Source: Thermomonas sp. XSG
GTDB taxonomy: Bacteria; Pseudomonadota; Gammaproteobacteria; Xanthomonadales; Xanthomonadaceae
Assembly: GCF_014678725.1 (NCBI RefSeq)
Contig: NZ_CP061497.1
Span: 2,496,001-2,560,000 of the forward strand
Length of the DNA: 64,000 nucleotides
Direction of reading: 5' to 3'
Shown here piece by piece: positions 53,886 through 64,000 of this stretch; position 1 is the first letter of the stretch, and each line of letters begins with the position of its first letter. The translations under genes and the position numbers were made by a program. The notes beneath the pieces are model-generated. The model was not told the DNA's origin and ran no database searches. It saw nothing but the letters and a program-made list of their open reading frames with translations.

Positions 53886-56297
53886 ATGAGTAAACCTCCC
53901 AGCAAGCGCGGCCAGGGCCGCGGCAAGGGGGCCGGCACCGTCAAAGGTGCCGGCAAGACCAGTGGATCACCGGCCAAGGGTGCCGGCAAGCGGCCGGGTT
54001 GGATGCCCGAACCGCCAGCGGGCGGCCCGGGCCGACGCGCGCCGCGGCCGACGTCGGCGCCCGTCGCCGATCCGCACGCGCATCGCGAAGCGCAGCGCTA
54101 CGAAAAACCGATCGCCAGCCGCGAAATGATCCTGCAGGTGCTGGCTGCGCAGGACGGGCCGATGGACGACCAGGCGCTCGCGCAGAAGCTCGAGCTGACT
54201 GAGCCGGACCGTTTCGAGGCCCTGCAGAAGCGCCTCGGCGCCATGCTGCGCGCCGGCCAGCTGCTGCAGAACCGGCGCGGCGGCTATGTGCCGGCGGCGC
54301 AGGCCGAACTGATCGCCGGCAGCGTGATCGCCAACCCCGACGGCTTCGGCTTCCTGCGCCCGGAGAAGGGCGGCGACGACCTGTTCCTGCCGCCGTACGA
54401 GATGCGCAAGGTCAGCCACGGCGACCGCGTGCTGGTCAGCCTCACCGGCATGGACCGGCGCGGGCGCGGCGAAGCGACCATCGTCGAGGTGCTGGAACGC
54501 CGCCTGACCCGGCTGCTGGGGCGCTATACCGAGGAGCTGGGCATCGCCTACGTGGTGCCGGACGACAAGCGCATCCAGCGCAACGTGATGGTGCCGCAGG
54601 ACGCGCGCAACGATGCGAGGGCGGGCCAGCTGGTGGTGGTGGAAATCACCACCCCGCAGGACGCGCACCGCCCGCCGATCGGCCGCGTGCTGGCGGTGCT
54701 GGGCGACAAGCTCACCGCCTCGCAGGCGGTGGAGGCGGCCATCCACGGCCATGACATCCCGCACGAGTTCCCCCCCGAGGTGCTGGCGCAGGCCACTGCG
54801 GTGCCGCTGGAGGTCCAGTACGACGAAACCGCCTCGCGCGTCGACCTGCGGCGCGTGCCGCTGGTGACGATCGATGGCGAGGACGCCAAGGATTTCGACG
54901 ATGCGGTGTGGTGCGAACCCAACGCAGACGGCTTCCGCCTGATCGTCGCGATCGCCGACGTTTCGCACTACGTGCGGCCCGGCACGCCGCTTGACGACGA
55001 GGCGCAGCTGCGCGCGACCTCGGTCTATTTCCCCGGCTTCGTGGTGCCGATGCTGCCGGAAACGCTCAGCAACGGCATCTGCTCGCTCAACCCGGCGGTG
55101 GACCGGCTGTGCTTCTGCTGCGACATGCAGGTGGGCCGCGACGGCATCGTCACGTCGAGCCGGTTCTACGAGGCGGTGATGCACTCGCACGCGCGCCTGA
55201 CCTACACCGACGTGTGGAACGCGGTGGGCGAGGGCATCCCGGAGGACGAACACGACGCCGCGCTGGCGAAGATCGGCCCCCTGCTGCCGCAGGTGCAGCG
55301 CCTGCACCAGCTCTACAAGGTGCTGGACAGGGCGCGTGCCAAGCGCGGAGCGATCGAGTTCGAGAGCAGCGAAGTGCGCTTCGTGCTGGACGCCAAGGGC
55401 GTGGTGACCCAGGCCGGCATGCTCCAGCGCAACGACGCCCACAAGCTGATCGAAGAGTGCATGATCGCGGCCAACGTGCAGGCCGCGCTGTACCTGATGC
55501 AGGCGCGCGTCCCCGCGCCCTACCGCGACCACGACAGGCCGCCGGAATCCAAGTACGCCGACCTGGAGGAATTCCTCAAGGAATTCCAGCTGCGCGTCCC
55601 GCCGTGGGCCAAGGTGCGGCCGAAGGACCTGCGCGCACTGCTCGAGAAGATCCGCGAACGCCCCGACGCCGCGCTGCTGGAGTCGGTGATCCTGCGCAGC
55701 CAGTCGCTGGCGGTGTACGCGCCGGACAACATCGGGCACTTCGGCCTGGCGCTGGAGGCCTACGCGCACTTCACCTCGCCGATCCGCCGCTACCCGGACC
55801 TGCTGGTGCATCGCGCGATCAAGCACGCGCTGGCCGGCGGCCGGCCGGAAGCCTACGAATACTCGCCGCACGAAATGGCCAGCCTGTCGCTGCAGTGCTC
55901 GGAGCGCTCGCGCCGCGCCGACGAGGCCCAGCGCGAGGTCGACGAGCGCTACCGCGCGGCGTGGATGGAAAGCCATGTCGGCAAGGAGTTCGACGGCACC
56001 ATCAGCGGCGTCACCAGCTTCGGCCTGTTCGTGGAACTGGACGATTCCAAGGTGAACGGCCTGGTCCACGTGACCCAGCTGCCGCGCGACTTCTACCACT
56101 TCGATGCGGTGCGCAAGACGCTCACCGGCGAGCGCCGCGGCCGCGAGTTCCGGCTCGGCGACCGCGTCCGCATCGTGGTGCTGAAGGCCAGCGTGGAAGA
56201 GCGCAAGATCGACTTCCGCCTGGCCGAGGAAGACGCCGGCCTGCCGGCGCTGCCGGAACGCGGCAAGCCGGCCAAGCGGCAGAAGAAGCGGTACTGA
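53886..56297 (+). CDS. rnr: Ribonuclease R
   Basis: An 803-residue 3'-to-5' exoribonuclease that degrades structured RNA. The N-terminus (1-60) is a basic, Gly/Lys/Pro-rich tail with GKGAGTVKGAGK. A winged-helix/cold-shock region (70-260) follows, including GSVIANPDGFGFLRPEKGG. The catalytic RNB domain has DGEDAKDFDDAVWC, which carries the metal-binding aspartates, and HFTSPIRRYPDLLVHR. The S1 domain near the end reads GKEFDGTISGVTSFGLFVEL. A basic C-terminus (KPAKRQKKRY) completes it. The start at 53886 removes a shadow extension through the tRNA. rlmB follows, as in many gammaproteobacteria. Confidence 0.96.
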   Translation: MSKPPSKRGQGRGKGAGTVKGAGKTSGSPAKGAGKRPGWMPEPPAGGPGRRAPRPTSAPVADPHAHREAQRYEKPIASREMILQVLAAQDGPMDDQALAQKLELTEPDRFEALQKRLGAMLRAGQLLQNRRGGYVPAAQAELIAGSVIANPDGFGFLRPEKGGDDLFLPPYEMRKVSHGDRVLVSLTGMDRRGRGEATIVEVLERRLTRLLGRYTEELGIAYVVPDDKRIQRNVMVPQDARNDARAGQLVVVEITTPQDAHRPPIGRVLAVLGDKLTASQAVEAAIHGHDIPHEFPPEVLAQATAVPLEVQYDETASRVDLRRVPLVTIDGEDAKDFDDAVWCEPNADGFRLIVAIADVSHYVRPGTPLDDEAQLRATSVYFPGFVVPMLPETLSNGICSLNPAVDRLCFCCDMQVGRDGIVTSSRFYEAVMHSHARLTYTDVWNAVGEGIPEDEHDAALAKIGPLLPQVQRLHQLYKVLDRARAKRGAIEFESSEVRFVLDAKGVVTQAGMLQRNDAHKLIEECMIAANVQAALYLMQARVPAPYRDHDRPPESKYADLEEFLKEFQLRVPPWAKVRPKDLRALLEKIRERPDAALLESVILRSQSLAVYAPDNIGHFGLALEAYAHFTSPIRRYPDLLVHRAIKHALAGGRPEAYEYSPHEMASLSLQCSERSRRADEAQREVDERYRAAWMESHVGKEFDGTISGVTSFGLFVELDDSKVNGLVHVTQLPRDFYHFDAVRKTLTGERRGREFRLGDRVRIVVLKASVEERKIDFRLAEEDAGLPALPERGKPAKRQKKRY

Positions 56298-56454
56298 GCG
56301 GGCTGGGGGTGCGCGGCGCGGGGCGGCGGACTGCTGCTCCGCCTCCGCGCGCGTTCCGTTCGGGGCGCGGCTGCCGGCCGTCGATGGCCGGCATTCCGCA
56401 ATTTCCCGCCCCGCGCCGGGTGCGCCGGATTTGCGCGTGCATCACAATAGCCGC

Positions 56455-57201
56455 ATGAGCAAATCCTCCCAATGGATCGTCGGCCTGAACGCGGTGGCTT
56501 CCGCGCTGGAACACGACGCCGAACACGTGCGCGAAGTGCTGCTGGAAGCCGGCGGCAAGAATCCGCGCATCACCGAAATCGAGCAGCAGGCGCGGCGCAA
56601 GGACATCGACGTGCGCCGGGTCGCCCAGCAGGCGCTGGACGGCGTGGCCGGCGGCGTGCGCCACCAGGGCGCGGCGGCGCGCTACGCGGCGGCGAAGACC
56701 TGGGACGAGCATGAGCTGCCGGCGTTGATCGAAGCCGCCGAAGGCAAGGCGCTGCTGCTGGTGCTGGACGGCGTGCAGGACCCGCACAACCTCGGCGCCT
56801 GCCTGCGTAGCGCGGCGGCGGCGGGCGCGACCGCGGTGGTGATTCCCAAGGACAAGGCGGTGCAGGTCAACGCCACCGTGCGCAAGACTTCGGCCGGCGC
56901 GGCTGACACCCTGCCGATCTTCAGCGTGACCAACCTCTCGCGCACCCTGCGTGACCTGCAGAAGGCCGGCGTGTGGATCTACGGGTTGGCCGGCGAGGCG
57001 GACGCGTCGCTGTACGCCATCGACCTGAAGGGCAACGTGGCCCTGGTGATGGGCAGCGAGGGCGAAGGCCTGCGCCGGCTCACCCGCGAGAACTGCGACC
57101 AGCTGGTGAAGATCCCCATGCCGGGCGGTTTCGAGAGCCTCAACGTGTCGGTCGCCAGCGGCGTGGCGCTGTTCGAAGCCGTGCGGCAAAGGAGCGCGTG
57201 A
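56455..57201 (+). CDS. rlmB: RlmB, 23S rRNA 2'-O-methyltransferase (G2251)
   Basis: A 248-residue SPOUT-fold enzyme that methylates the ribose of G2251 in 23S rRNA. The N-terminal substrate-binding domain starts MSKSSQWIVGLNAVASALEH. The SPOUT knot motifs are LDGVQDPHNLGACLRSAAAA, MGSEGEGLRRL and GGFESLNVSVASGVALFE, the last two forming the SAM site. The rnr-rlmB order is conserved in gammaproteobacteria. Its stop overlaps the next gene's start (TGATG). The ATG at 56455 is chosen over an upstream frame with no family match. Confidence 0.95.
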   Translation: MSKSSQWIVGLNAVASALEHDAEHVREVLLEAGGKNPRITEIEQQARRKDIDVRRVAQQALDGVAGGVRHQGAAARYAAAKTWDEHELPALIEAAEGKALLLVLDGVQDPHNLGACLRSAAAAGATAVVIPKDKAVQVNATVRKTSAGAADTLPIFSVTNLSRTLRDLQKAGVWIYGLAGEADASLYAIDLKGNVALVMGSEGEGLRRLTRENCDQLVKIPMPGGFESLNVSVASGVALFEAVRQRSA

Positions 57202-57467
57202 TGGCCTTGAACCTGATGTGGTACGACTGGGTAGGCATCGCCGGGACACTGGCGGTGCTGGTGGCGTTCTTCCTGCTGCAGGCCGGCAAGCTGTCCGGCA
57301 CCGGCATCGTCTACCAGCTGCTGAACCTGTTCGGCTCCGGCGGTGTGCTGGTGTCGCTGCTGGGCAAGTTCAACGTGTCGGTGTTCGTGCTGGAAGCCGT
57401 GTGGATGGCGATCAGCGCCTACGGGATCGTGCGGACGCTCAGGGCGAAGCGTCCTGGGCCCCAGTGA
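57201..57467 (+). CDS. CBU_0592-type small membrane protein
   Basis: An 88-residue membrane protein with three hydrophobic segments: VGIAGTLAVLVAFFLLQ, GIVYQLLNLFGSGGVLVSLL and VFVLEAVWMAISAYGIV. Motifs QAGKLSGTGIVYQLLNLFG and KFNVSVFVLEAVWMAIS match a widespread small family named after Coxiella CBU_0592; the function is unknown. AAAGGAG lies 7 bases ahead and the ATG overlaps the rlmB stop, so it is translated with rlmB. Its conserved Q-L-L-N core suggests helix packing, perhaps as an accessory to a larger membrane complex. Confidence 0.85.
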   Translation: MALNLMWYDWVGIAGTLAVLVAFFLLQAGKLSGTGIVYQLLNLFGSGGVLVSLLGKFNVSVFVLEAVWMAISAYGIVRTLRAKRPGPQ

Positions 57468-57555
57468 GCCGCCGGGCGACGCGCCCGTAGCGAGCGCAGG
57501 GACAATCCGTGCCGTGGATGGCGCCGATTCGCCTAGATAGGTGAGGCAAGCGTTT

Positions 57556-57607
57556 GCGAAGCATCGCTTCGCGTGCAGCCGAACGCCTGCGATGTTCCAT
57601 CGCAGGC
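57556..57607. repeat. Two tandem hairpins between convergent genes
   Basis: GCGAAG-CATCG-CTTCGC (57556-57572) is followed by GCCTGCGATG-TTC-CATCGCAGGC (57585-57607), a perfect 10-bp stem. They lie in the 160 bases between the small membrane gene (plus) and rnt (minus). Neither has a T-run, so they look like REP-type palindromes or a stable RNA end rather than a classical terminator. Confidence 0.55.
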
Positions 57608-57627
57608 CGGCCCCACGGCGTGGGAAT

Positions 57628-58296
57628 TCACGGCGTGTCCCCAGCCGCTGCGGGTACGGCGTTCGGCGACGGGGCAGGACGAACCCAGCTGTTTGCAATC
57701 GCACAGAACAACTTCGCGGTCTGCTCGGTGTCGTATACCGCCGAATGCGCCTGGCTGGGATCCCAGCCAAGCCCGGCAGCCATTGCCGCGCGCGCCAGCA
57801 CGGTCTGGCCATAGGCCAGGCCGGCCATCGTCACCGTGTCGAACACGCTGAATGGATGGAACGGGTTGCGCTTGTGCTGGACGCGGGCGACCGCGGCATT
57901 GAGGAAATTGAGGTCGAAATGGGCGTTGTGGCCCACCAGGATGGCGCGCTGGCAGCCGTGCTTCTTCACTGCGGCGCGCACCGGCACGAAGATCGCGTCC
58001 AGCCCGGTGCGCTCGTCCACTTCGCCGCGCAGAGGATGACCGATCTTGATGCCGGTGACCTCCAGCGATTTCGGGTCGATGCTGGTGCCGGGCGCAGGGG
58101 CGATGTGCGCATGCGCGACTTCGCCCGGCACGTAGTTGCCGGCCGCATCCAGTTCGATCGGGATTGCCGCGATCTCCAGCAGGGCGTGCTTGTTCCAGTC
58201 GAAGCCGCCGGTTTCCACGTCCACCACCACCGGCAGGTAGCCGCGGAAGCGCTCGGCCATCGCCGCGAAGGCGGGTGCGTCTTGCGTATCGGTCAT
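57628..58296 (-). CDS. rnt: Ribonuclease T
   Basis: A 222-residue DEDDh exonuclease that trims tRNA 3' ends and matures stable RNAs. Motifs are [19 protein letters not shown] (Exo I), [17 protein letters not shown] (Exo II) and [14 protein letters not shown] (Exo III, with the catalytic His). [20 protein letters not shown] is also typical. The start at 58296 (MTDTQD) is preferred over a TTG six bases earlier. The proline-rich end ([14 protein letters not shown]) is an addition. It lies downstream of the hvf-like cluster on the same strand, with a 41-base gap. Confidence 0.94.
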
Positions 58297-58337
58297 CGAC
58301 AAAGCCTAGCAGAGCGAGCCGCTGGCCCCCGTTGCGT

Positions 58338-59087
58338 TCACCGCGCGGGCGGCGCGGTGCCCAGTAGCACGCCTTCGTCGCGCAGCCGTTCCAGCATCGG
58401 CAGTGCCTCGCCGAGGAACGCATCGAAATCGGGGTGGCCGGCTTCCTCCGCCAGCTGGCGCAACAGTGCCCGGCCGCTGCGCCCTTCGTTGGCGGAAACC
58501 AGCGCCAGCAGGCGGTACAGCAGCGGGGACAGCATCGAGAAATGGACGCGGCCGCCGGGATCGCGGCGCAGCAGCACCAGCGTGGGTGCGGGCGGTGGTT
58601 CGGTGGGCTGGCAGTCCGGGCCGAGCCGGTGCACCGGCCAACGGTAGGCCAGCGGCCACGCCAACGGCGACACCAGTGGCACGCCGCCCAGCAGATCGCC
58701 ATCGGGATCGTGCGCAGGCAGCGCGGCGTCGCTGAGCTGCAGGCCCAGCTCGGCCCATTCGTAGTGCGCCAGCTCGGCCAGCCATGGCCGCGCGGGCGCT
58801 TCCGCGGCCTCGAGGAAGGCGATGAACTCCAGTCCCAGCCGGGTGAACAGCGGGGTTTCGCTGCGGTGGTTGATGAGGAGGCGGCGCAGCAGCGCCTGCC
58901 AGTCGGCATCGCCCAGGGTCCTGCGGATCACCGGGAAGGTGCCGGCCAGCAGGCCGTCCAGGTTGTTGGCCACCAGCTCGCGATAGACCGCCAGCCGCCG
59001 GTCCTCGATGCCGGGCGGCCCGGGGTGCGTGGCCGGATCGCGCACGTGCGCGGCCAGCGCGTGCAGCTGGTCGTGCAGCGCGCTCAT
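58338..59087 (-). CDS. hvfC: HvfC/BufC-type MNIO partner protein (DUF2063)
   Basis: A 249-residue partner protein of the DUF692/MNIO enzyme in Hvf and bufferin RiPP loci. The N-terminal DUF2063 domain is clear: [40 protein letters not shown] and [13 protein letters not shown]. The remaining part (about 100-249) is the helical C-terminal region of the family. In characterised systems this protein binds the precursor's leader region (a RiPP recognition element) and delivers it to the MNIO enzyme. Its ATG overlaps the stop of the MNIO gene (ATGA), so the two are made together. Confidence 0.9.
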
Positions 59088-59905
59088 GCCGCGGCCTGCA
59101 GTGCACGGATGCGCGCCACCTCGTCCAGCAGCACCGGCAGCGGCGGGAAGTTGAAGTCGCGCTCCAGCAGGGTGGGGCGCACGCCGTGGGTGGCGTAGGC
59201 GAAGCTGAGCAGCGCCCACACGTCGTCCTTCACCGCCGTGCCGTGGGTGTCGATCTTGAGGTCGTCGGCCTCGTCGAAGTGGCCGGCGACGTGGTAGCTG
59301 GCGATGCGCTGCGTCGGCATCGCCGCGATGAAGGCGCGCGCGTCGTAGCCGTGGTTGATCGCGTTGACGTAGACGTTGTTGACGTCCAGCAGCAGGTCGC
59401 AATCGGCTTCGGCCAGCACCGCGTTGACGAAATCGGTTTCGGCAAGCTGCCGGTGCGGCGCCGCGTAATAGCTGACGTTCTCCACCGCGATGCGCCGGCC
59501 CAGTGCGTCCTGCACCTGGCGGATGCGCGCGGCGACGTGGCGAACGGCTTCTTCGGTGAACGGCAGCGGCAGCAGGTCGTAGAGATGGCCGTTTGCTGCG
59601 CAGTAGCTCAGGTGCTCGCTGTAGAGCGCGACGCGGTGGCGATCCAGGAAATCGCGGGTCTGGCGCAGGAACGCGTGGTCCAGCGGATCCGGGCCGCCCA
59701 GCGACAGCGACAGGCCGTGGCAGCTCAGCGGATGCCGCGCCGTCAGCGTTTCCAGCTGCCCGCCGAGCGCGCCACCGACGCCGATCCAGTTGTCCGGCGC
59801 GCATTCCAGAAAATCGAAGGCGCCCGCAGGCGCCCCGATCAATTCGTCCAGCAGCGCGCGGCGCAGGCCAAGCCCGGCGCCGTGCTGGGGCAGGGCCTCA
59901 GCCAC
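59084..59905 (-). CDS. hvfB: HvfB/BufB-type MNIO enzyme (DUF692, multinuclear iron oxidase)
   Basis: A 273-residue DUF692 (MNIO) enzyme of the TIM-barrel type. These iron enzymes oxidatively rearrange cysteines of precursor peptides. Recognisable segments are [91 protein letters not shown] and [11 protein letters not shown], which carry the His, Asp and Glu iron ligands. The start is GTG at 59905, three bases after the precursor gene's stop. Order precursor-MNIO-partner matches known hvfABC and buf loci. Predicted to act on the EGKCG cysteines before export. Confidence 0.94.
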
Positions 59906-59908
59906 GGC

Positions 59909-60373
59909 TCACATGCTGCCGCCGCACTTGCCCTCGCCGCATTTGCCTTCCCCGCACTTGCCTTCGCCGGCGGCCTTGCCGTCCTTCTTCATGGCAGCAT
60001 GGTGCGCGTCCATTTCGGCCTGGCTGATGAAGCCGTCGCCGTCGGTGTCGATCTTCGGGAACATCGTGTCCTTGCCGGCGTGGGCAGCGGCGAACTCGGC
60101 GCGGGAGATGCGGCCGTCCTTGTCGGTGTCCTTCTGCGCCATGCCGCAGCTGCCTTCCTGCTTGGCCTTGTCGGCCTTGGCGGGCTTGTCGGCGCCCATC
60201 ATCCCGGCGCCGCACTTGCCTTCCCCGCACTTGCCCTCGCTGGCGGCGGCCTTGGGCGGATCCTGCAGGTAGCCGTGGGCCATCGCGTCCATCGAGAACA
60301 GCGGGCCGGCGAGCGCGCCGGTGGCAACGGCGGCGCCGATCACCAGCGCCAGGGGATTGCGGGATTGCGACAT
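59909..60373 (-). CDS. hvfA: HvfA-like RiPP precursor with six EGxCG motifs and two EF-hands
   Basis: A 154-residue predicted RiPP precursor. A signal-like segment (1-32) is followed by EGKCG at 46-50 and 51-55, EGSCG at 73-77, two EF-hand loops starting at Asp82 (DTDKDGRISRAE) and Asp109 (DTDGDGFISQAE), then EGKCG at 137-141, 142-146 and 147-151. All six cysteines sit in EGxCG. HvfA-type precursors carry EGKCG motifs whose cysteines become oxazolone/thioamide groups that bind copper; here two calcium-binding loops sit between the motif blocks. AAGGAG precedes 60373. The MNIO gene starts three bases after the stop. Copper protection is the likely role. Confidence 0.88.
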   Translation of the reverse strand: MSQSRNPLALVIGAAVATGALAGPLFSMDAMAHGYLQDPPKAAASEGKCGEGKCGAGMMGADKPAKADKAKQEGSCGMAQKDTDKDGRISRAEFAAAHAGKDTMFPKIDTDGDGFISQAEMDAHHAAMKKDGKAAGEGKCGEGKCGEGKCGGSM

Positions 60374-60470
60374 GGTCGACTCCTTGCGCGAATGCGCCTG
60401 ATGGTGGGGCGATCCTACCGCTTGCGGCACGGGGCGGCCAGTCGCCGGCAGGCGCGCTGTCCCGGGTGGT

Positions 60471-61175
60471 TCAGACGGCGGTGGTGTTGCTTTCGTCGCG
60501 CTTGTCGCGCTGCGGCAGCAGCTCCTCGCCGTGGATCAGGAACCAGGCGTTCTCGGCGATGTTGGTGGCGTGGTCGCCGATCCGCTCGATGTTCTTGGCC
60601 ATGAACAGCAGGTGGGTGCAGGCGGTGATCGCGCGCTGGTCCTCCATCATGTAGGTCAACAGCTCGCGGAACAGCCCGGTGTAGAGGGTGTCCAGCTCGG
60701 CGTCGCGCGCGCGCACGCGCAGCGCGGCCTCGCCGTCGCGTTCGCGGTAGGCCTCCAGCACGTCGCGCACCTGCTGCACCGCCATCCTGCCGAGGGTGCC
60801 GAGCCCGCGCGTATGCGGCAGCGGCGGCAGCTGGTTCAGCACCAGCGAGCGCTTGGCGATGTTCGCCGCGTAGTCGCCGATCCGCTCGATGTCCGAAGCC
60901 ACCCGCAGCGCGGCCAGGATCATGCGCAGGTCGGTGGCCATCGGGCCGCGCCGGATCAGGTGGATCACGTCGTGGTTGACCTGCTGTTCCAGCGCGTCGA
61001 TGGCTTCGTCGTTGGCGACCACCCGCTCGGCGGCGCCATCGTCGCGGCGTTCCACCACTTCGAGCGCTGCTTCCAGCTGGGAGGCGGCCATCAGGCCCAT
61101 GCGGATCAGTTCGCCCTGCAGCGCGTGCTGCTCGGCGTCGTAGCTCCGGACGATGTGGCTGTGCTGTTCGTTCAT
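60471..61175 (-). CDS. phoU: PhoU, phosphate-uptake regulator
   Basis: A 234-residue helical protein, two PhoU repeats, that links the Pst transporter to the PhoR kinase and represses the Pho regulon when phosphate is plentiful. Repeats appear around AALRVASDIERIGDYAANIA and FMAKNIERIGDHATNIAENA, each with the E-R-I-G-D metal-binding motif. GAAGGAG lies 8 bases before the ATG at 61175. It follows pstB by 80 bases on the same strand and ends the pst operon; the hvf-like cluster begins 97 bases further on. Confidence 0.96.
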   Translation of the reverse strand: MNEQHSHIVRSYDAEQHALQGELIRMGLMAASQLEAALEVVERRDDGAAERVVANDEAIDALEQQVNHDVIHLIRRGPMATDLRMILAALRVASDIERIGDYAANIAKRSLVLNQLPPLPHTRGLGTLGRMAVQQVRDVLEAYRERDGEAALRVRARDAELDTLYTGLFRELLTYMMEDQRAITACTHLLFMAKNIERIGDHATNIAENAWFLIHGEELLPQRDKRDESNTTAV

Positions 61176-61255
61176 GTCTTGCTCCTTCTTCCCGATGGCC
61201 GGGGAAGTGCCCCGCAAGGGGACGAGGGTCGTTACGTGTGCGTGGACTGGCCTGG

Positions 61256-62092
61256 TCAGCCGAAACGACCGGTGATGTAGTCCTCGGTCTGCTGCTTGGC
61301 CGGGTTGGAGAAAATCTGCGAAGTCGCGCCGTGCTCGACCATGTCGCCCAGGTACATGAAGGCGGTGTAGTCGGACACGCGCGCGGCCTGCTGCATGTTG
61401 TGGGTGACGATCATGATGGTGAACTCCTGCTTGAGTTCCTCCACCAGCTGCTCGATGCGGCCGGTGGAGATCGGGTCCAGCGCGGAGGTCGGCTCGTCCA
61501 GCAGCAGCACGTCGGGCTTCAGCGCCACCGCGCGGGCGATGCACAGACGCTGCTGCTGGCCGCCGGACAGGCCCAGCCCACTTTCCTTCAGCTTGTCCTT
61601 CACCTCGTCCCAAAGCGCGGCCTGGCGCAGCGCCTGCTCGACGCGCACGTCCAGCTCGGCCCTGCCCAGGCGTTCGTGGTGGCGGATGCCATAAGCCACG
61701 TTCTCGTGGATGGTCATCGGGAACGGCACCGGCTTCTGGAACACCATGCCCACCCGGCTGCGCAGGCGGTTCATCGGGTACTTCGGATCGAGGATGTTCT
61801 CCCCGTCCAACAGCACCTCGCCTTCGGCACGCAGCTTGGGATAGAGCGCGTAGATGCGGTTGAACACCCGCAGCAGGGTGGACTTGCCGCAGCCGGACGG
61901 GCCGATCAGCGCGGTGACGCGCTTCTCGGGGATGTCGAGGTTGATGTTCCGGACCGCCAGGGACTTGTCGTACCAGAAGTTCAGCCCGCGGGCGGACAGC
62001 TTCACCGGCGGCGACTGGGGCAGGGCGGCATCGTGCGGCGCTTGCATGGCGGCTTGGGCATAGTTCATCGGAATGGTCCGGAGGTCAGTCAT
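61256..62092 (-). CDS. pstB: PstB, phosphate ABC transporter ATPase
   Basis: A 278-residue ATPase that powers phosphate import through PstC and PstA. It has Walker [11 protein letters not shown]-loop [13 protein letters not shown], signature [14 protein letters not shown], Walker [14 protein letters not shown] and H-loop [14 protein letters not shown]. The first 28 residues are a variable extension. Starting at 62092, it overlaps pstA by eight bases; an alternative ATG at 62068 would give 270 residues. Phosphate starvation through PhoB would be expected to induce it, but no Pho box is visible inside the operon. Confidence 0.96.
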
Positions 62093-62948
62093 GGGCGGCG
62101 CGCTTGCGCAGGAGGATGAAGCGGGCCAGCAGGCTGGTGGCCAGCACGAACAGGGTGACCAGCAGCGCGCCGGCCCAGGCCAGCTGCTCCCAGTTCTCGA
62201 AGCCCGAGCCGGCGAACTTGTACATGGTCAGCGGCACCGCGCTCATCGCGCCGCCGATGTCGAGGCTGAAGAACTCGTTGCCGAACGCGGTGAACAGCAG
62301 CGGCGCGGTTTCGCCGCTGATCCGCGCCAGCGCCAGCAGCACGCCGGTGACGATGCCGGGCAGCGCGCTGCGATAGAGCACCTGCAGGGTGACCTTCCAC
62401 TGCGGCACGCCCAGCGACAGCGCGGCTTCGCGCATCTGCACCGGCACCAGCCTCAGCATCTCGTCGGTAGTGCGCACCACCACCGGCAGCACGATGAAGG
62501 CCAGCGCCAGCGCGCCGGCGAAGGCGGAGAAATTGCCGCCGGTGTTCATCACGAAGGCCGCGTACACGAACAGGCCCAGCACGATTGATGGTGCCGACAG
62601 CAGGATGTCGTTGACGAAGCGCACCGCGGTGCCGAGCTTGCGATGGCCGCCGACCTCCGCCAGCCAGGTGCCGGCGGCGATGCCCAGCGGGGTGCCGATG
62701 GCCACGCCCATGCCGCACATCAGCAGGCTGCCGACGATGGCGTTGCGCAGGCCGCCGGCCTCCATCGGCGGCGGCTGGTCCTGGGTGAACAGCGCCAGGT
62801 TCAGGTGCGCCAGGCCCTTCGCCAACAGGGTCCACAGGATCCAGCCGAGGAAGGCCAGGCCGAACAGCGCGGCCGCGCAGGCCAGGCCGATGGCCACGGC
62901 GTTCTTGATGCGGCGATTACGGTACAGCGATGCGGACGGGGCGTTCAC
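62085..62948 (-). CDS. pstA: PstA, phosphate ABC transporter permease
   Basis: A 287-residue inner-membrane permease with about six transmembrane helices and the ABC-permease loop [19 protein letters not shown] (EAA motif). Its start is a GTG at 62948 ([12 protein letters not shown] follows) overlapping the pstC stop as GTGA. Other typical segments are [20 protein letters not shown] and [18 protein letters not shown]. With PstC it forms the phosphate channel. The end overlaps pstB's start, so the three genes are translationally linked. Confidence 0.95.
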
Positions 62949-63916
62949 CGGTTGCCCTCCTTGCGCGCGAGGTTGAGCAGCATCAGCCGGGCCAGCGCCA
63001 GCACGATGAAGGTGACGATGAACAGCACGAAGCCGAGCAGCAGCAGGGCGGCGCGATAGGTCTCGGTGGCCTCGCCGAAATCGTTGGCGATGAGCGCGGC
63101 GATGGTGGTCGACGGCTCCAGCAGCGACGCAGTGAAAGACACGCTGTTGCCGATCACGAAGGCCACCGCCATGGTTTCGCCCAGCGCGCGGCCCAAGCCC
63201 AGGAACACGCCGCCGATCACCGCCGAGCGGGTGTAGGGCAGGACGATGTCCCAGCTCACTTCCCACTTGGTCGCGCCGAGCGCGTAGGCCGATTCCTTAA
63301 GCCGCGCCGGCACGGTCAGGAACACCTCGCGCATGGTCGAGGAGATGAACGGGATCACCATGATCGACAGCACAAGGCCGGAGGTCAGCATGCCGGCGCC
63401 GATCGGCGGGCCCTGGAACAGCGGGCCGATCACCGGCAGCGGGCCCAGGTGCGCGTCCATCCACGGAATCAGGTGCTCGCGCATCACCGGCATCAGCACG
63501 AAGAAGCCCCACATGCCGTAGATGATCGAGGGGATGCCGGCCAGCAGTTCGATGGCGGTGCCCACCGGCGTGCGCAGCCAGCGCGGCGCCACCTCGGTGA
63601 GGAAGAAGGCGATGCCGAAGCTCACCGGCACCGCGATCACCATCGCGATCAGCGCGGTGACCAGCGTGCCGTAGATCGGCACAAGCGCGCCGTACTTGTT
63701 CTCCACCGGGTTCCAGTCGGTGGAGAAGAAGAAGCCCAGGCCCTCGTGCGACAGGACGCTGCGCCCGCCCCACAGCATCGAGAGGGCGGCGCCGGCCAGG
63801 CTGAACAGGACGAAGACCGCGGTGGCGGTCAGCAGCCAGCGGAACCAGCGGTCGTGGCGCGAATCGGCCGCATCACGGCGGCTGGCGATCGGAAGGTCGG
63901 AGGTGGTGGCGCTCAT
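62945..63916 (-). CDS. pstC: PstC, phosphate ABC transporter permease
   Basis: A 323-residue permease partner of PstA. Segments LKESAYALGATKWEVSWDIV (EAA-type loop), GRALGETMAVAFVIGN and AGIPSIIYGMWGFFVLMP are family signatures, and six transmembrane helices are visible. The start MSATTSDLPIASRRD at 63916 puts a polar 25-residue tail before the first helix. A phosphate-binding PstS gene should lie upstream, past the window edge. The pst genes run pstC-pstA-pstB-phoU on the minus strand. Confidence 0.96.
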   Translation of the reverse strand: MSATTSDLPIASRRDAADSRHDRWFRWLLTATAVFVLFSLAGAALSMLWGGRSVLSHEGLGFFFSTDWNPVENKYGALVPIYGTLVTALIAMVIAVPVSFGIAFFLTEVAPRWLRTPVGTAIELLAGIPSIIYGMWGFFVLMPVMREHLIPWMDAHLGPLPVIGPLFQGPPIGAGMLTSGLVLSIMVIPFISSTMREVFLTVPARLKESAYALGATKWEVSWDIVLPYTRSAVIGGVFLGLGRALGETMAVAFVIGNSVSFTASLLEPSTTIAALIANDFGEATETYRAALLLLGFVLFIVTFIVLALARLMLLNLARKEGNR

Positions 63917-64000
63917 TCGGTCTGCTCGTCAGGCCCGCGGGGCGGGCACTGTGGGAATCGGGGGCGGTCCGCGGCGGCGTCAGGCGGGCTGCCCGGCCCA
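63917..64000. other. Edge region upstream of pstC, possible pstS tail
   Basis: These 84 bases hold a run of open minus-strand codons from the window edge (W-A-G-Q-P-A) to a TGA at 63980-63982, which could be the last residues of PstS. That is too short to prove. The remaining about 60 bases would be the pstS-pstC gap; no promoter is evident. Confidence 0.3.

Follow-up and report, generated by a model that had tools for sequence, protein, structure and literature searches.

The window analysed here is a stretch of 64,000 nucleotides from Thermomonas sp. XSG. Three minus-strand genes form an operon at positions 60373-58338, encoding a precursor protein, an MNIO (DUF692) enzyme and a DUF2063 partner, and are located between phoU and a 3′-5′ exonuclease gene (window positions 57628-61175, Pfam). 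The features of the operon are as follows.

59909-60373, minus strand: precursor of 154 aa with a signal peptide, two EGKCG, one EGSCG, an EF-hand pair and three EGKCG (ORF, Pfam and NCBIfam)
60278-60373, minus strand: putative Sec signal peptide, residues 1-32, ending in AMA (sequence by eye)
60269-60274, minus strand: GY motif, residues 34-35, after the signal peptide
60209-60238, minus strand: N-side EGKCGEGKCG, residues 46-55
60143-60157, minus strand: EGSCG, residues 73-77
60095-60130, minus strand: EF-hand loop 1, DTDKDGRISRAE, residues 82-93 (Pfam)
60014-60049, minus strand: EF-hand loop 2, DTDGDGFISQAE, residues 109-120 (Pfam)
59921-59965, minus strand: C-side EGKCGEGKCGEGKCG, residues 137-151
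59084-59905, minus strand: HvfB-family MNIO (DUF692) enzyme, GTG start at 59905 (Pfam, NCBIfam and structure match)
58338-59087, minus strand: HvfC-family partner, DUF2063 + NGO1945_C (Pfam, NCBIfam and structure match)

The precursor gene is separated from the MNIO start by 3 bases, and the last 4 bases of the MNIO gene (59087-59084) are shared with the start of the HvfC gene. The five EGKCG motifs occupy residues 46-50, 51-55, 137-141, 142-146, and 147-151, with EGSCG at 73-77, and all six cysteines of the precursor (Cys 49, 54, 76, 140, 145, and 150) are inside an EGxCG motif. The two canonical EF loops sit between motifs 3 and 4, and Cys76 is 6 residues ahead of the first Ca ligand of EF1. 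The precursor scored 37.8 bits with Pfam EF-hand_5 in two stretches (cut-off 25.9) and passed the NCBIfam motif-domain model KCGExKCG_twice (NF050137; 27.7 versus a cut-off of 19.5). With the full-length HvfA equivalog model (NF050188), it reached 22.9 bits against a cut-off of 95, and the operon was therefore filed as HvfB/HvfC-type, not as HvfA itself.

The MNIO gave 346 bits with Pfam MbnB_TglH_ChrH and 429 bits with the NCBIfam HvfB family (cut-off 360), and was the sole PF05114 match in a profile search of the genome. The partner gave 80.9 bits for DUF2063, 101.5 bits for NGO1945_C and 277 bits for the NCBIfam HvfC family (cut-off 142). Among solved structures, the best sequence match was 3BWW for the MNIO and, weakly, 3DEE for the HvfC partner. 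The MNIO carries DVNN and DTHG; across 237 MNIO rows, DVNN-like motifs were found in 236 and DTHG-like motifs in all 237. By spacing, these motifs would correspond to N175, D242, and H244, which were reported to be essential in HvfB (PMC13419390). The closest MNIO among the named relatives was that of a Proteobacteria MAG (L122, 95% identity), followed by that of T. beijingensis (81%). An EGKCG-type precursor is followed here by an HvfB-family MNIO and an HvfC-family partner, as in HvfA-type captophorin operons. The original prediction of an Hvf-type operon was borne out by the Pfam and NCBIfam matches and the intact MNIO motifs, and the ORFs confirmed its sequence details, namely the 154 residues, the six EGxCG motifs holding all cysteines, the two EF loops, and the gap and overlap between the genes.

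The checked neighbours of the operon are phoU, an ABC transporter ATPase and permease, and the exonuclease gene. No two-component gene was seen by eye in the ORF list for 54000-64000, and no Rfam match reached the gathering score in 56000-62200. A scan of 57500-60700 returned 0 promoter-like sites and 3 terminator-like sites versus 1.6 expected. Upstream of the precursor start, TAGGATCG is present at 60410-60417 (minus strand); in an alignment of 8 same-genus-type sequences, 6 had it ahead of the precursor gene (counted by eye), and it is possibly a promoter element.

Of 192 distinct precursors, with or without EF-hands, 169 had a GY motif no more than 45 aa ahead of their first EGxCG motif; it may be part of what HvfC recognises. 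In the structure model, which is weak as a whole (mean pLDDT 58, pTM 0.42), the EF pair (mature residues 51-90) had a pLDDT of 82-86 per ten-residue block, the blocks before and after it had 61 and 69, and both arms were below 50. A 4-residue entering helix directly follows EGSCG, in the block with a mean pLDDT of 61. When the model was compared with the PDB by Foldseek, the top matches were calmodulin-like and other EF-hand proteins with a best E of 0.059, and no match was found at E ≤ 0.001.

The locus was compared with several known families. The DUF2282 and BufB models did not point to a bufferin (Buf1/Buf2): there was no DUF2282 match, and the BufB model gave 275 bits against 310, while the HvfB model was passed. 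XopAW was rejected (38.1 bits versus a cut-off of 120), and its best stretch, residues 57-127, was the EF-hand part. Lanmodulin is an EF-hand protein too, but was rejected on score, as the LanM model gave 19.6 bits against a cut-off of 135. The hallmark of lanmodulin is Pro at loop position 2, whereas the window precursor has Thr there.

Two systems already in print resemble the window locus. Antoine et al. (2025) describe EGKCG|EF-hand_5 chimaeras and name EfhP as an example in their discussion (PMC12452194). Like the window precursor, these chimaeras carry an export signal or helix at the N-terminus, two EF-hands, and EGKCG motifs but no 17-residue repeats, and their loci include genes for an MNIO and a DUF2063 protein; the window locus thus has the EGKCG domain, the two EF-hand_5 stretches and the MNIO neighbour of the Buf_EGKCG/EF-hand_5 type. 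The gene order EfhP-DUF692-DUF2063 of P. aeruginosa has been in print since 2014 (PMC4053335), and EfhP (PA4107) with PA4106 and PA4105 resembles the window in its EGKCG motifs, two canonical EF-hands, and adjoining DUF692 and DUF2063 genes. The suggestion in the original prediction that this architecture may be undescribed is refuted by these two reports. However, in the published chimaeras the EF-hands are C-terminal to the EGKCG domain; the window precursor likewise has an N-side block ahead of the EF pair, but also three further EGKCG motifs after it. In the abstracts and passages of the literature consulted, no description was met of motifs on both sides of an EF pair, although supplements may count such proteins, and no report was met of an EF-hand chimaera tested for thiooxazoles. 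The window locus is, therefore, a flanked subtype of the described chimaera, real and mostly explained.

To see how the motifs, the EF-hands and the MNIO are distributed, loci were collected at several levels. The family has at least 150 HvfB places; from the 150 listed, the top 30 and each alternate place below them were taken, giving 90 loci, and the even-step family sample comprised 75 loci. The named loci were the best 80 of 533 relatives, with flanks of at most 2.5 kb. Outside the family, 70 loci were examined of the 115 places over the cut-off in the class; one of them, G561 from the same order, was entered manually to replace a truncated locus. In the even-step sample, 36 precursors combined two strict EF loops with motifs on either side, 8 had two strict loops preceded but not followed by motifs, 24 had no EF loops, and 7 belonged to small or empty classes. 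Among the 70 class-level loci, 5 had EF-hands and 52 had a motif ORF without EF-hands, including two (L249 and L270) with a single motif only. No motif ORF was present upstream of the MNIO in 13 of the 70 class-level and 3 of the 80 named loci. Two rows should be read with care: L040 has a masked stretch inside its precursor, so that its EF-free label may be wrong, and L069 has little DNA upstream.

In the window's genus, HvfB was over the cut-off in 18 of 25 genomes, and all 18 loci, the window's included, had the flanked form with two EF-hands and motifs on both sides, which argues that the window architecture is more than chance. None of the 12 weaker MNIO loci of the genus had an EGxCG gene upstream. 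Two strict Ca loops were kept in 18/18 of the same-genus loci, which had been chosen by MNIO alone, so the two complete EF-hand loops of the original prediction are supported. Likewise, of the loci with at least one strict loop, 44 of 49 in the even-step sample and 58 of 66 among the named ones had both loops strict. No cysteine was present inside the EF pair in 102 of 103 tabulated pairs. Ligand positions 1 and 12 were the same in 103/103 pairs, largely by construction, as the search pattern required position 1 and limited position 12 to D, E or Q.

The motif and the MNIO were found to travel together. All of the best 30 precursor matches in the family, one of which is the window's own, were followed on their strand by genes for an MNIO and an HvfC protein; the original prediction was to fall if every close homologue lacked a DUF692 neighbour, and it survived this check, as none of these 30 lacked one. 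Of 30 loci kept from a search of the phylum, 11 had EGxCG motifs and 10 of these had an MNIO (window included), versus 0 of the 19 loci without EGxCG motifs. One motif-free row of this search (L299) had no readable EF loop either. The one motif-bearing locus without an MNIO, L286, has a chimaeric precursor and no MNIO or HvfC match within 1.5-kb flanks. On the MNIO tree (193 rows), the precursor type changed 18 times versus at least 75 times in 200 shuffles, indicating that the precursor type follows the MNIO tree.

We then compared the EF-bearing precursors with each other, in a set of 104 distinct EF-pair precursors to which the family, named and class loci all contributed. EGxCG motifs flanked the EF pair in 69, as in the window, and were on the N-side only in 35, as published. 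Of the 69 flanked forms, 56 had their last N-side motif Cys 6 residues ahead of the first Ca ligand, whereas in 34 of the 35 N-only forms this Cys was 9 residues ahead; as the pooled rows are mutually related and favour relatives of the window, the ratio and the spacing counts are not independent draws. Outside the window's genus, whose rows were taken out via a hand-made list, the 6-residue spacing was found in 53 of 62 distinct flanked forms. On the other side of the pair, EF2 and the first C-side Cys were separated by 20 to 41 residues. Within the genus, just 9 of 18 loci had the 6-residue spacing and the EF1-adjacent Cys was absent in the other 9, so a tight coupling of calcium and copper is not general, and a universal lock between this Cys and EF1 is ruled out. 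In one same-genus precursor (L321), the EF1-adjacent motif is EGSTG, with Thr in place of Cys.

The two subtypes also differed in their location and their enzymes. Among the named loci, phoU and/or the exonuclease gene adjoined 34 of 35 flanked forms and all 11 EF-free precursors, but none of the 30 N-only forms with the 9-residue spacing; both genes adjoin the single N-only form with a spacing of 6 (L152). The MNIO tree gathered 35 of the 36 N-only rows in one clade of 37 (support 92) together with two flanked rows, L163 (a Lysobacter) and L092, and the remaining N-only row (L080) was outside it. L163 and L092 combine the EfhP-type 9-residue spacing with a C-terminal EGKCGEGKCG block and are thus intermediate between the subtypes. 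The slot and clade data indicate that the window's type and the EF-free precursors are alternatives at one locus and that the EfhP type is a separate operon. The window precursor and its locus differ from the EfhP-type rows, which have N-side motifs only, a Cys 9 rather than 6 residues ahead of EF1, a longer tail, and an MNIO clade and locus of their own. A P. aeruginosa PA7 protein taken to be EfhP (L169) was 52% identical to the mature window protein over 86 residues. Flanked forms outside the family fell in three places among EF-free ones on the MNIO tree, a pattern that several independent insertions of EF-hands could produce; a tree of the short EF domain, with 139 rows and 6 switches between the chimaera and EF-only states, lacks the strength to settle this, and one of its rows (L277) is the window's own locus mislabelled as EF-only.

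The chemistry to be expected is known from oxazolin/HvfA and fontiphorin/FonA, captophorins that share with the window an EGKCG substrate and HvfB/HvfC-family enzymes (PMC13419390, PMC13097082). FonBC and HvfBC convert the Cys of EGKCG to 5-thiooxazoles (PMC13097082), a modification also established in PMC13419390, and FonA binds Cu (PMC13097082). The term EF-hand has 0 occurrences in the main text of both papers. Whereas hvf has a DoxX-like gene, a PF07681 profile search of the window genome gave 0 matches.

We infer modification of the window precursor, an order of events, a copper-buffering role and a role for the EF pair. The likeliest product of the three genes is a copper-binding peptide that has a calcium-binding core. 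We consider it fairly probable that this is a captophorin/oxazolin-type operon in which modified Cys blocks lie on either side of an EF pair that folds after export in a Ca-dependent manner. In the cytosol, HvfB and HvfC would oxidise the EGKCG cysteines of the still unfolded precursor to 5-thiooxazoles, and might modify the isolated EGSCG as well; a single isolated EGKCG was left unmodified by FonBC in vitro (PMC13097082), so Cys76 may stay a thiol. The Sec system would then export the modified precursor, periplasmic Ca2+ would fill both EF-hands, and the core would fold, leaving two flexible copper-binding arms. The EF pair would thus serve as a Ca-dependent scaffold that holds both arms on one compact protein. 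EfhP is predicted to be periplasmic and binds Ca2+ with an affinity of 13.7 μM (PMC9132961), which suggests that such sites are usually filled after export. Among possible roles of the EF pair, Ca-dependent folding after export appears the likeliest. Considering that EF-free precursors occupy the same chromosomal slot, the EF pair is not needed for the basic job of the operon.

The other readings are not mutually exclusive with this one or with each other, and their probabilities should be taken in that sense. The shared phoU/exonuclease slot of flanked and EF-free named loci (34/35 and 11/11) would also fit an EF pair that is a neutral or stabilising spacer, gained and lost at one locus, with Ca2+ not tied to copper. 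The C-side spacing of 20 to 41 residues and the missing EF1-adjacent Cys in 9 of 18 same-genus precursors agree with such a spacer. However, the two strict Ca loops in every same-genus locus and in most EF-bearing loci elsewhere, and the 6-residue spacing in 53 of 62 distinct flanked forms outside the genus, speak against it, and we regard it as somewhat unlikely. It is less probable still, and in our view unlikely, that the protein is first of all a calcium sensor like EfhP, with an EF pair that signals in response to Ca2+ in the periplasm and with Cys blocks, modified or not, that either detect iron or copper or serve to anchor a partner. Responses to Ca2+ are mediated by EfhP, whose surface hydrophobicity increases with Ca2+ (PMC9132961); dual Ca/Fe sensing through its four EGKCG repeats was proposed by its authors (PMC11559002); and BfmR, which controls the efhP operon (PMC8025907, PMC4148453), is the response regulator that activated efhP most strongly of all genes in one RNA-seq study (PMC8025907). 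But the window protein differs from the EfhP type in its MNIO lineage and its chromosomal slot, does not have the tail of the aligned EfhP-type rows, and has phoU, ABC transporter and exonuclease genes as its checked neighbours, with no two-component gene seen by eye in 54000-64000.

The original prediction went further and proposed a Ca-gated copper buffer, in which Ca2+ occupancy switches copper binding or release. Most members from outside the genus have a Cys at a fixed distance ahead of the entering helix of EF1, which would suit such a switch, as would the rearrangement of EfhP on binding Ca2+ (PMC9132961). However, periplasmic Ca2+ is reported to reflect or exceed outside levels, and the affinity of EfhP is 13.7 μM (PMC9132961), so that such sites would be filled in most settings. 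Moreover, most of the cysteines are in the arms, which are disordered in the model, and a general requirement is disfavoured by the same-genus loci, half of which lack the EF1-adjacent Cys. We consider gating improbable, the least probable of the ideas discussed here. Slightly less doubtful, yet still far from expected, is that the last modified N-side Cys is part of the EF-hand itself, placed directly ahead of the EF1 entering helix at a constant 6 or 9 residues from the first Ca ligand, and that Ca2+ binding thereby sets the geometry of a copper-binding thiooxazole. If this were true, such proteins, EfhP included, would be dual-metal RiPP proteins with mutual effects between Ca2+ and copper, and an MNIO modification that has gone unrecognised would underlie the Ca2+ and iron phenotypes published for EfhP.

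The preferred reading, modified copper-binding arms around a calcium-binding core, touches on two literatures that barely meet, one treating EfhP as a Ca2+ sensor and the other treating EGKCG peptides as copper-binding RiPPs. EfhP studies report Ca signalling and iron phenotypes, and in PMC11559002 (mBio) the word copper has two occurrences, both within the reference list. The flanked subtype, the spacing between Cys and EF1, and the EF-free alternatives at the same locus provide a natural comparison for asking what a calcium-binding core does in a copper-binding RiPP.
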